From the NCBI GenBank assembly GCA_002480735.1, contig DLCS01000101.1, positions 1 to 18,262 of the forward strand: a stretch of 18,262 nt of DNA, in the 5' to 3' direction. Source of the stretch: Bacillaceae bacterium UBA7792 (GTDB lineage Bacteria > Bacillota > Bacilli > Bacillales > Cytobacillaceae). The notes under the pieces were generated by a model, which saw only the letters and a program-made list of their open reading frames with translations, did no database searches and had not been told where the DNA came from. The position numbers and the translations under genes were made by a program. Positions within the stretch are counted from its first letter, which is position 1. The number at the start of each line of letters is the position of its first letter. Below are positions 8,075-11,171 of the stretch, piece after piece.

Positions 8075-9286
8075 TCACGCCTTCAGCCTATTTTTATGAT
8101 AAATATAGACAAATAAATAACTAAACACAAATCCTGCGAGAATGGAGATAAAGCCAACAGACCATTCTTCTTTGAGAAAGATTGGAATAGCAAGCAATAT
8201 AGACTGGAGCATTAAAATGATTGTAAGGAATTTCTTAAAAGAATTCCCTCGGAACGATTCCTCGATTGGATATAGCTGTAGCCATATTTTATTCTGATGG
8301 TGATTCCATAGTGGCATAAGCTGAAAGCCGGTAAGAAATAAGAACAATAGTACAAAGAGAATCTGCCCCTTTCCATACACCACGAAGAAAAGAACCAGCA
8401 TCCCAATCACCGTTAATCTAATGAAAAGGCCAAGATAGTCTCCACCTCGAATGAATGTATGGACATACAGATGGGTATAGACCCCCTTATGCTCAAATTT
8501 AAGGAATCCGGATACCCAATCAAGCCATTTTCTTCTCCTTACCCTATCCTTTAGCTTCGGAACATCCGTAAATAAATTCGCTAAACGGTAAAAGGCCATC
8601 ATTCTCTTTGCTTCCTGATCAATGAGGAACTCCCATTTCAGACCCTTTTGCTTTGTTTGCGAAAAATAAAGCAGATAGAGCATTCCACAAATGAAGAGAA
8701 CAGGAAGAATGAACCAAAGCTGGGCATGCGAAAACAAGAGAAAAAGAAAAACTGCATTGATAAAATAGCGAATAACCGAATCAATCATATGTACATTCGT
8801 ACTCACGTAAAACTGTACGCGCCAGCGGATGAGAAGATTTAACGCCTTAGCTACACACATCATCAACAGAAATGGCAAAAAGCTTCCGTAACCATTGTTA
8901 TGAACCTGTGCATACATCGGCATCAGGATGGCAAGGCCCCCAATCAATAGGTACAATTGGATAAAAAAGCTTGCCACCATCGATCGTTGAAAATATGGCT
9001 TTAATTTCTCTTCAAGCGGAATAAGAAAAATCCGATCCGCCTCCATTAAAAAGGTAAAGATGGGACTGAATGTGAGCAAAAAAGCCAACAGGACAGCCAT
9101 AATAACCGCCACTGGAAAATCCTGTTCCAGACCTCGTACCCAGCCTTGATAATAATAGGATGCAGTACCAATTAAGAAAACCATGCCAATAACAACATGA
9201 CCGTTAAAGATATAACGTCCATATCTGCTTAATTCCTTTAATGTTCGACCTACTCTTTCTTTCCAGAGCCTCTTTTCATCAAACAT
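8075..9286 (-). CDS. ecsB: ABC transporter permease EcsB
   Basis: A 403-residue polytopic membrane protein, partner of the EcsA ATPase. In B. subtilis Ecs affects protein secretion, exoenzyme production, competence and regulated intramembrane proteolysis by RasP; the substrate is not settled. The sequence has an amphipathic N-terminus (LWKERVGRTLKELSRYGRY) and about nine hydrophobic segments in two blocks separated by a basic cytoplasmic loop (KLKDRVRRRKWLDW). The ATG lies inside the 3' end of ecsA (8-nt overlap), indicating tight coupling. A terminator follows at once, so ecsC, the third gene of the B. subtilis operon, is not present here. Confidence 0.92.
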   Translation of the reverse strand: MFDEKRLWKERVGRTLKELSRYGRYIFNGHVVIGMVFLIGTASYYYQGWVRGLEQDFPVAVIMAVLLAFLLTFSPIFTFLMEADRIFLIPLEEKLKPYFQRSMVASFFIQLYLLIGGLAILMPMYAQVHNNGYGSFLPFLLMMCVAKALNLLIRWRVQFYVSTNVHMIDSVIRYFINAVFLFLLFSHAQLWFILPVLFICGMLYLLYFSQTKQKGLKWEFLIDQEAKRMMAFYRLANLFTDVPKLKDRVRRRKWLDWVSGFLKFEHKGVYTHLYVHTFIRGGDYLGLFIRLTVIGMLVLFFVVYGKGQILFVLLFLFLTGFQLMPLWNHHQNKIWLQLYPIEESFRGNSFKKFLTIILMLQSILLAIPIFLKEEWSVGFISILAGFVFSYLFVYIYHKNRLKA

Positions 9287-10019
9287 AGTCTTCTTCCTTT
9301 GTCAACTGAATATATAAATCATCTAACGTCGCATTCGGCATCGAAAATTGCTCCTGCAAATCCTTTAAAGTCCCTTTTGCCCGCACACTACCCTCATGCA
9401 AAATCACAAAACGATCACAATAGCGCTCCGCTGTTGCCAAAATATGTGTCGACATGAGAATTCCTGCCCCATCTTCCTTCATTTTTTTCATCAGATCAAG
9501 CAAGGACTGGATACCGAGAGGATCGAGACCAACAAAAGGCTCATCCACAATATAAAGGCTTGGCTGAACAAGAAATGCACACATGATCATGACCTTTTGT
9601 TTCATCCCCTTCGAAAAATGGGCTGGGAACCATTTCAACCGCTTTTGCATCCGAAATTCCTTCAAGAGAACCTGCTTTCGCTCCTCAAAAATTTTCTTGT
9701 CAAGCCCATAGGCCATTGCCGTCATTGATAAATGCTCGTCCAGCGTTAGCTCATCGTATAAAATGGGGGTTTCCGGAACGAACGTAAACTGTTTTCGATA
9801 GGCCTCCTTGTCCTCCTGAAACGTCCTTCCATTAATGCTGATCTCACCTTTATGCGGCTCCATTAAACCAATAACATGCTTGATGGTTGTGCTTTTCCCT
9901 GCTCCATTTAAGCCAATGAGACCGACTATTTCGTTTTCATTCACCTCAAAGGACACATTTTTCAGGACAGGATTTCTCGTGTAACCACCCGTGATCTCTT
10001 TGATTTCCAGCAAACTCAT
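9279..10019 (-). CDS. ecsA: ABC transporter ATP-binding protein EcsA
   Basis: A 246-residue ATPase subunit. Walker A GLNGAGKST is at ~36-44, Q-loop around PETPILYDELTL, a degenerate signature SKGMKQKV in place of LSGGQ, Walker B LYIVDEP followed by the D-loop VGLD, and the H-loop STHIL. The SKGM signature is common in this exporter class. The minus-strand leader has GGGAG about 10 nt before the ATG. It heads a two-gene operon with ecsB. A candidate RNA gene and hit are transcribed away from it on the other strand, and palindromic repeat copy 2 lies about 110 bp upstream. Confidence 0.94.
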   Translation of the reverse strand: MSLLEIKEITGGYTRNPVLKNVSFEVNENEIVGLIGLNGAGKSTTIKHVIGLMEPHKGEISINGRTFQEDKEAYRKQFTFVPETPILYDELTLDEHLSMTAMAYGLDKKIFEERKQVLLKEFRMQKRLKWFPAHFSKGMKQKVMIMCAFLVQPSLYIVDEPFVGLDPLGIQSLLDLMKKMKEDGAGILMSTHILATAERYCDRFVILHEGSVRAKGTLKDLQEQFSMPNATLDDLYIQLTKEEDYV

Positions 10020-10129
10020 TCAACAACAACTCCCAAATGTAGTTAGTCTCATTTTAACAAATTGCACTTCTAAAAAATAGAAATACGATACGGTTGTGAA
10101 ATATTTAGCATATAGCGCTTTGTTTATTA

Positions 10130-10197
10130 GCCTTATATGTGTGCGTGAACGGGTTTTATTCGGTACGAAAACTCTCGTGAACGTACACATATAAGGC
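10130..10197 (+). repeat. Palindromic repeat, copy 2 (68-bp core)
   Basis: Arms 10130-10146 and 10181-10197 pair over 17 positions, with one G-T wobble (10143/10184). The 34-nt centre differs from that of copy 3 at one base. The core is flanked by GTTTATTA at 10122-10129 and 10199-10206, which could be a target-site duplication or part of the element. The 35-bp flank shared by copies 1 and 3 is not clearly present. Located upstream of ecsA. Confidence 0.85.
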
Positions 10198-10278
10198 GGT
10201 TTATTAATCAAAAATAAATATTAAAGAGAAAAGAGAGAAAAAATTAAAAATCGCACATATTTTTTTGTAGTCTGGACA

Positions 10279-10287
10279 TGATAATAT
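10279..10287 (+). promoter_or_regulatory. Extended -10 promoter of the candidate RNA gene
   Basis: TGATAATAT is a TG-n-TAATAT extended -10 element. No good -35 is visible at 16-18 bp upstream, only T-rich DNA. Predicted start is near 10293, right at the 5' strand of the closing stem of the RNA. Confidence 0.45.
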
Positions 10288-10289
10288 TC

Positions 10290-10651
10290 GAAGGGGAAAA
10301 ACAAGTTAAAAATGGGGTGTCTGTCGCAGGCAATAACCATTGAAAATAAGCTTCAAACGTTCCAATAAGGGGATGGTTGTATTGGACTATTTAGTTCACT
10401 AACCTAGATCTGTAAACCATTTTATAAAAAAAATGGGGTGTTCGCTAAAGGCTATCTACCCGCTTTATAAGTTGTGAAACCTATAAGGAATAAGGGGATG
10501 GTACGCTTGGACAATGGATCGATTTCTCATTAGATAACATTCATGCAAATGAGGTGTTTATCAAAGGGAAGATACCCGAATGAACAAGAAGCATTTCCCC
10601 TTCAAAGGGACAGGCGGGATTCAAGAGGAATCCTGCCTGTTCCACTTTTTT
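10290..10651 (+). ncRNA. Candidate structured non-coding RNA with three related modules
   Basis: A gene-free stretch of ~360 nt with three visible layers of order. First, GAAGGGGAAA (10290-10299) is exactly complementary to TTTCCCCTTC (10594-10603), a 10-bp pairing that would close the whole domain. Second, three diverged modules of ~120-nt period begin with AATGGGGTGT (10311), AAATGGGGTGTT (10431) and AAATGAGGTGTT (10547). Modules 1 and 2 also share AATAAGGGGATGGT (10364, 10489) followed by TTGGAC (10382, 10507); modules 2 and 3 share AAAGG...TACCCG. Third, an intrinsic terminator follows (10608-10651). Local hairpins are possible, such as GTCTG-TCG-CAGGC in module 1. No ORF over 60 codons or ribosome-site-led ORF is present. 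I do not recognise the family. It diverges from ecsA and precedes hit, which has its own promoter. Confidence 0.6.
10608..10651 (+). terminator. Intrinsic terminator of the candidate RNA
   Basis: GGACAGGCGGGATTC (10608-10622) pairs with GAATCCTGCCTGTTCC (10628-10643), with one G-T wobble and a one-base bulge, loop AAGAG, followed by six Ts (10646-10651). It is a long, GC-rich stem on the plus strand only. Confidence 0.9.
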
Positions 10652-10693
10652 GGACTAATAAGTCAATCGCTATGACTGCGCAGCTTCATCCTG

Positions 10694-10722
10694 TTCTCTT
10701 TGCCTCTCGCTTGTGGTAAAAT
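10694..10722 (+). promoter_or_regulatory. Predicted promoter of hit
   Basis: TTCTCT (10694-10699), 17-nt spacer, TAAAAT (10717-10722) preceded by TG at 10714-10715 as an extended -10. Start near 10729 gives a ~23-nt leader carrying the ribosome site GAGAGGAG. Confidence 0.55.
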
Positions 10723-10751
10723 ATTCTAAAATACTCGAGAGGAGTCTGAAA

Positions 10752-11171
10752 ATGAGCGATTGTATTTTCTGTAAGATTGTTAATGGAGAAATTCCATCAG
10801 CCAAAGTTTTTGAAAATGAGCATGTTGTTGCATTCCTTGATATTAGCCAGGTAACGAAAGGACATACCCTTGTTATTCCTAAGGTACATAAGGAAAATGT
10901 TTATGAGCTAACACCTGAGGTTGCCCAGCAAATCTTTGAGGTAGTGCCGAAGATCGCCAATGCTTTAAAAACAACCTATAACCCAATTGGAATGAACCTT
11001 GTCAACAACAATGGAGAAAAAGCCGGACAATCGGTGTTCCACTTCCATTTGCATCTTCTTCCCCGATATGGTGAGGGTGACGGCTTTGGTGCTGTCTGGA
11101 AAACTCATCAGAGCGATTATACTCCAGAAGACTATCAAAACATGGCAAAGGAAATCAAGCAAAATTTATAA
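10752..11171 (+). CDS. hit: HIT family hydrolase
   Basis: A 139-residue HIT (histidine triad) protein, a nucleotide hydrolase/transferase acting on purine nucleoside phosphoramidates or dinucleotides; the physiological substrate is not established. The N-terminal CIFCKIVNGEIPSAKVFE is typical of the HINT branch, and the triad HFHLHLLPRY (H-x-H-x-H) follows GQSVF near residue 98. The ATG at 10752 was chosen because GAGAGGAG (10737-10744) is 7 nt upstream and MSDCIFC is the usual start; the upstream in-frame GTG lies inside the promoter. As in B. subtilis it is divergent from ecsA. A terminator and repeat copy 3 follow. Confidence 0.95.
   Translation: MSDCIFCKIVNGEIPSAKVFENEHVVAFLDISQVTKGHTLVIPKVHKENVYELTPEVAQQIFEVVPKIANALKTTYNPIGMNLVNNNGEKAGQSVFHFHLHLLPRYGEGDGFGAVWKTHQSDYTPEDYQNMAKEIKQNL

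Follow-up and report, generated by a model that had tools for sequence, protein, structure and literature searches.

The gap between ecsA and hit in Bacillaceae bacterium UBA7792 contains a free-standing, structured RNA gene of about 360 nucleotides, which is almost certainly the orthologue of the forespore small RNA described as Bvs196, S357 or ncr1670. This assignment draws on synteny, shared motifs, promoter type and overall architecture. The RNA is already published under these names; what is new here is the family-wide architecture and an invariant motif repeated along the RNA. A first-pass annotation made from the DNA alone had read the region as an RNA gene, and that reading is supported: the comparison of relatives gives the RNA a promoter of its own, a stem that closes it and a terminator, and an RNA of about 300 nt from the orthologous gap of B. 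velezensis is seen on a published Northern blot (PMC9147052).

An orthologue of Bvs196 between ecsA and hit

In the window (the whole 18,262-nt stretch of DNA that was analysed), the list of open reading frames places ecsA at 9279-10019, on the opposite strand and ahead of the RNA gene, and hit, identified by a Hit match as well, on the same strand as the RNA and 3′ of it, starting at 10752. The two genes lie on both sides of the RNA in 59 of the 60 loci checked (44 genomes, including its own). Feature coordinates are collected in Table 1, where the ends of the RNA gene are inferred from a start about 6 nt past the -10 region and an end within the T run. Every position given by the first-pass annotation agrees with the letters of the window.

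Table 1. Features of the RNA locus in the window
Feature	Position	Strand	Evidence
Sigma-G/sigma-F-type promoter (predicted)	10255..10283	+	Letters and best-scoring sites in 65 hit-ecsA gaps
RNA gene, almost certain orthologue of Bvs196 / S357 / ncr1670	10289..10651	+	Synteny, fold z = -3.61
Closing stem, 5′ strand, GAAGGGGAAA	10290..10299	+	Letters, inverted pair; kept in relatives
Motif copy 1, AAATGGGGTGTCTGTCGCAGGC	10310..10331	+	Letters, repeat count; family consensus
Second conserved island, copy 1, AATAAGGGGATGGT	10364..10377	+	Repeat count
Motif copy 2, AAATGGGGTGTTCGCTAAAGGC	10431..10452	+	Letters, repeat count, module-2 alignment
Hairpin between module 2 islands, CTTTATAAGTTG...CCTATAAGG	10463..10488	+	Predicted fold, alignment
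Second conserved island, copy 2	10489..10502	+	Repeat count, module-2 alignment
Motif copy 3, AAATGAGGTGTTTATCAAAGGG	10547..10568	+	Letters, repeat count, genome search
Closing stem, 3′ strand, TTTCCCCTTC	10594..10603	+	Letters, inverted pair; kept in relatives
Intrinsic terminator: stem of 16 pairs followed by Ts	10607..10651	+	Terminator-like hairpin 10607-10643
Likely separate hit promoter element, extended -10, TGGTAAAAT	10714..10722	+	Letters

The published RNA occupies the same place. Bvs196 of B. velezensis, 294 nt long and located between hinT and ecsA, is reported as an independently transcribed forespore sRNA, made by sigma-F/sigma-G and homologous to B. subtilis S357 (PMC9147052). 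The 256-nt ncr1670 likewise comes from the hinT-ecsA gap and was enriched 2.77-fold with Hfq (PMC3574147), and 'ncr1670; S357' is elsewhere named as a single sRNA (PMC4410918). The B. subtilis homologue is called S357 in the introduction of the Bvs196 paper and S547 in its discussion (PMC9147052), S547 being CsfG (PMC8216469).

Our comparison with Bvs196 and S357 was made through the B. subtilis-group orthologues L061-L064. L061 and L064, which are closely related to B. velezensis and B. subtilis, have the same motif copies and gene order as the window RNA, and each of the three has three motif copies and a terminator. Shared with the published RNA are the gap between hit (hinT) and ecsA, a similar length, a terminator, a structured body and a promoter of apparent sigma-F/G type, known here from its letters and their match to the sigma-G consensus. 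The window RNA differs in coming from another genus, in having GGGG instead of the usual GAGG in its first two motif copies, and in its additional AAGGGGATGGT islands. In the text sections and passages covered of the Bvs196, S357 and ncr1670 papers, the repeated motif and the closing stem go unmentioned.

The first-pass annotation recognised no known RNA class, and Rfam searches of the whole window and 17 related loci bear this out, with no Rfam 15 family at its gathering cut-off; a relaxed scan of 10100-10740 gave six matches, each far under its gathering score. Annotation based on Rfam will thus miss this RNA.

A short motif is the conserved repeat unit

The region had been described as three tandem modules of about 120 nt. 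The repeats stand: AAATGRGGTG occurs three times, at 121- and 116-nt intervals (10310, 10431 and 10547), against 0.07 occurrences expected in the whole window, a count that none of 200 shuffles reached. Modules 1 and 2 do share AATAAGGGGATGGT and TTGGAC, within 27-nt copies that are 81% alike, and AATAAGGGGATGGT is found twice in the window (10364, 10489) against 0.00 expected. The 120-nt unit did not hold up, as what is kept in relatives is a motif of about 22 nt with variable spacing and copy number.

The comparison set consists of 80 named hit-ecsA regions, chosen as the best among 567 found; 67 of them carry the motif. The remaining 13 of these best 80 lack it; searched with simple patterns, they gave one promoter-like string at -628 (L122), one GAGGTG at -28 (L135) and otherwise none. 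With the window included, motif and terminator occur together in 65 of 81 gaps, the 16 left out being the 13 without the motif and three without a terminator above the cut-off; the sets used for the end helix and for the column-based test also leave out L080, L115 and L127, which have weak promoter scores.

The family motif reads AAAUGAGGUGUUURUCRMAGAC (22 nt, 184 distinct copies). Since this consensus fixes AATGRGGTG by its own search pattern, copies were recounted with the pattern anchored on either half: AUGAGG is nearly invariant when the 5′ half is left free (125 copies), and UGUUU and AGA stay strong when the 3′ half is left free (144 copies). Three copies are present in 44 of 65 RNAs, two in 12, one in a single RNA and four to seven in eight, numbers that are regex counts and thus miss diverged copies such as copy 1 of L063. 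Three RNAs (L075, L076 and L107) have seven copies each and exceed 600 nt by our end calls, and the RNA seems to grow by added modules. The AUG of the motif was considered as the start of tiny open reading frames and rejected, as the resulting lengths (11/18/29 amino acids at the quartiles of 181 copies) indicate that the motif is not coding.

Module 2 has further conserved sequence on the far side of a hairpin. Among 20 aligned module-2 sequences, preselected from 25 for having the hairpin, the second island, AGGGGAUGGU, stands invariant beyond the hairpin; the AGGGGATGGT of island copy 2 is the same in 20/20.

Promoter, terminator and closing stem

An extended -10 had been proposed at the 5′ end of the gene, a claim that was not upheld: no sigma-70-type promoter was called on the + strand between 10000 and 10900, and relatives point instead to a sigma-G/F-type promoter, which in the window comprises a -35-like ACATA (10255-10259), a 17-nt spacer and a -10 CATGATA (10277-10283) preceded by GGA. 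The family pattern is G[CT]ATA, 16-19 nt, GGACATCATAAT. At the best-scoring sites in 65 gaps, CATNNTA, which we take to be the sigma-G consensus, is present in 53, GG stands ahead of the -10 in 50, and the -35 matches at four or five of five positions in 62; the scoring that selected these sites itself favours consensus features, with the shuffled control as the sole guard, and 40 of the 65 outscore the top one of 65 shuffled controls. The sites called in L080, L082 and L107 look wrong. A promoter of sigma-G/F type agrees with the forespore expression that we take from the published orthologue (PMC9147052).

The strong intrinsic terminator of the first reading is present as a terminator-like hairpin in the window, and one above the cut-off is found in 65 of 68 motif-bearing gaps. 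Beyond it, TGGTAAAAT recurs upstream of hit in all five aligned same-genus relatives and is likely the promoter element of hit itself. On the other side of the gene, the interval that separates the ecsA start from the promoter of the RNA has an inverted repeat GCCTTATATGTGTGCG ... CGTACACATATAAGGC with one mismatch (10130-10197), a stretch where unrelated miRNA families match weakly.

The two strands of the closing stem are complementary as had been noted, and belong to one 13-nt inverted pair (92% complementary, 294 nt apart). None of 100 dinucleotide shuffles folds as well as the segment 10289-10604 (z = -3.61), whose minimum-energy structure includes the stem. Searching between the RNA 5′ end and the stretch ahead of the terminator, we found that the longest helix built of Watson-Crick pairs only has a median of 8 bp in 62 gaps, as against 5 for 1,240 internal stretches of the same RNAs. 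This helix lies in the expected place (start at most 9 nt from the end of the -10 region, partner end at a distance of -1 to 8 nt to the terminator hairpin) in 54 of the 62 gaps, those of the window and L061 among them, and elsewhere in eight. In L064 the longest such helix is further in, and a duplex model includes the end pairing.

The sequence of the stem is changeable. GAAGGG is part of it in 34 of the 54 gaps and absent from 20, where strands such as AGAGGAAAGCA, AGAAGAAATG, GAGGAAGC, GAAGAAGGAAA and ATGTAGGG are found; this is the stricter count, as some of the 42 distinct strand strings differ from one another in length alone. Partners swapped between species still pair (median 6 bp), and the matched partner is best in just 10 of 65 gaps, because purines dominate one strand along its whole length. 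A column-based test did not set the stem apart from row shuffles (0.667 paired, 38 of 500 shuffles as high, 3′ side misregistered). RNAalifold on six same-genus whole RNAs returned a structure with the closing stem; on 25 module-2 sequences it returned none, and mutual information on the motif and its flanks revealed no clear helix. As far as these alignments and helices reach, the closing stem is kept in relatives, partly through changed sequences.

Distribution among Bacilli

DNA matches to the window RNA were found in 35 of 61 genomes and the motif with at most three mismatches in 52 of 61, its own genome included in both, at essentially one locus per genome. That locus is confirmed between hit and ecsA in 43 of the 52 motif genomes and lies elsewhere in one (G041), the other eight being outside the synteny check; in a further genome (G027) synteny confirms the RNA locus where the motif pattern has no match. 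Elsewhere in the genomes the motif appears only at scattered single places with two or three mismatches, and a backward control is likewise scattered. In one assembly with 9% contamination (G011) the motif lies on both C56 and C131, two separate contigs, perhaps as a result of a mixed assembly.

Across 299 genomes sampled from the whole class, all copies with zero or one mismatch fall within the window's own order, in the GTDB sense; outside it there are scattered matches with two or three mismatches, and the backward control is scattered too. A motif match, in some cases perhaps by chance, is present in 20 of the 27 same-order genomes of this sample, which was examined by a pattern search that could miss diverged copies. 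Since sigG is above cut-off in 186 of the 299 genomes and clear copies of the motif are confined to one order, the RNA is not universal to spore formers and is, as judged by its motif, a feature of one order of Bacilli.

Possible mechanisms

The overall best explanation, to which we give slightly better than an even chance, is a Bvs196-type forespore RNA that presents repeated docking sites to a conserved partner. Such an RNA would be made late in the forespore from its sigma-G (weakly sigma-F) promoter, and its closing stem would zip the ends together, hold the multi-branched body and probably protect the ends. The body would present the motif in mostly two to four, and up to seven, copies, with module 2 presenting AGGGGAUGGU as well; each motif copy would be a putative docking site for a conserved partner, protein or RNA, and one RNA could bind several partner molecules and titrate or gather them during spore maturation. 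That multi-copy binding sites titrate or gather the partner in the forespore is a plausible mechanism whose chances we place a little short of even. A near-invariant motif in one to seven copies, with diverging sequence between them, is what one would expect if a binding site were repeated, and several such copies suggest that the RNA holds several copies of one partner. Copy number and conservation do not prove multivalency, and the motif could be structural, since its positions 7-11 and 18-21 are mostly predicted to be paired.

This pairing also fits an ordinary trans-acting sRNA, in which the motifs just form a scaffold and less conserved stretches pair with a few sporulation mRNAs (spo0A, sspN-tlp). 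Work in B. velezensis favours such a role: Bvs196 binds both mRNAs in vitro, with mutants included in the binding experiments, a deletion strain has altered target mRNA levels and spore resistance, and spore heat and UV resistance are affected (PMC9147052). The reported spo0A pairing, however, uses nt 74-131 (PMC9147052), a segment that by hand count sits between the first and second motif copies of L061 and L064; the published targets therefore leave the motif kept across genera unexplained. Nor does a scaffold role explain the near-invariance of AAAUGAGGUG, because stems can covary. We regard this account as possible though rather unlikely. For docking to a conserved partner, candidates were sought by duplex energies against shuffled motifs, and the 16S rRNA 3′ end was the best partner tried for the core motif. 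A ribosome decoy, whose motif copies would pair with that end and occupy 30S subunits in the maturing spore, has in its favour that AAAUGAGGUG is one base short of the perfect Shine-Dalgarno string AAAGGAGGUG, that the 13-nt core reaches -9.5 kcal/mol (0.6% of 500 shuffles as good) and that the tolerated A-to-G changes would presumably still pair with U. Yet the motif holds no perfect Shine-Dalgarno string: the mismatching U is kept, as T in 122 of 125 copies and never as G, which counts against a decoy because a perfect match should make it more effective. The idea also accounts for neither the AAAU part nor the 3′ half, and with the GGGG variants of the window and the full 22-nt motif the share of shuffles that pair equally well rises to 3.8-4.8%. 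In our view the decoy is improbable.

About as improbable is a RosA-like sponge of C-rich sRNAs such as RoxS and CsfG. Window motif copies 1 and 2 carry GGGG, and 13-nt cores of this type reach -11.6 kcal/mol with three RoxS sequences from relatives, a marginal result (4.8-8.4% of shuffles as good), and about -10 kcal/mol with CsfG (10-12%); RoxS is present in the window's own genome, and all 61 genomes searched match RF00516, which is CsfG read on the reverse strand. The common motif, however, has GAGG (96% of 184 copies have A where a G would complete GGGG) and pairs with these sRNAs no better than shuffles (41% as good for CsfG, 33-87% for the three RoxS sequences tried), so both were rejected as its partners. 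RosA itself, first suggested by the G-rich repeats, was discarded: the modules of orthologues L061-L064 have no GGGG, the papers tie the gap to S357/ncr1670, and RosA is the CcpA-controlled S345 (PMC8216469). FsrA was rejected with matches in 0 of 61 genomes under strict filters, and the YlbG loci searched for CsfG did not show it there, CsfG being found through RF00516. The RoxS of the window's own genome (L035) has ACATACCCCTTTG, which could pair, one G-U pair included, with the GGGGTGT of window copies 1 and 2. Four of five same-genus relatives have GGGG in copy 1 and/or 2, and RoxS may thus take part in a local side-interaction. Least probable of all, to the point of being very doubtful, is a cis-acting leader of hit, an attenuator or tandem aptamer: the RNA does precede hit in the same orientation and does end with a terminator, but hit has its own promoter-like element past that terminator in the window and in five of five same-genus relatives, the terminator-to-hit spacing differs by hundreds of nucleotides from gap to gap, and the orthologous RNA of about 300 nt is reported as independently transcribed (PMC9147052).

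Repeated docking sites are the preferred reading, for which the invariant repeated motif offers a direct handle, as bait, mutant or competitor, for finding the real partner.

Comparison with known regulatory RNAs

RosA resembles the window RNA in being a Bacillus sRNA with several G-rich stretches and a sponge logic, but it is a different segment (S345, not S357), about 225 nt long and controlled by CcpA, and binds through runs of four G (PMC8216469), which the modules of the L061-L064 orthologues lack. CsfG is, like the window RNA, a conserved forespore sRNA, but is C-rich where the window RNA is G-rich, and by eye the two share no motif.

The CsrB/CsrC and RsmY/RsmZ sponges are structured RNAs that carry many copies of a short motif, vary in copy number and end in a terminator. 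The window family has in common with them a repeated motif, variable copies (1-7; three in 44 of 65) and the terminator; it differs in that its motif is not the GGA site of CsrA and that, going by the orthologue, it is made in the forespore. Its short repeated motif, diverging body and changeable closing stem look like those of a titrating or scaffolding RNA, and the most likely mechanism would be such a sponge or scaffold, by analogy CsrB-like in logic. To our knowledge, few forespore RNAs have a known mechanism. We tentatively suggest, well short of an even chance, that many genera of one order may use a multivalent forespore RNA as a developmental counterpart of the CsrB sponge, possibly one that parks translation components before dormancy.
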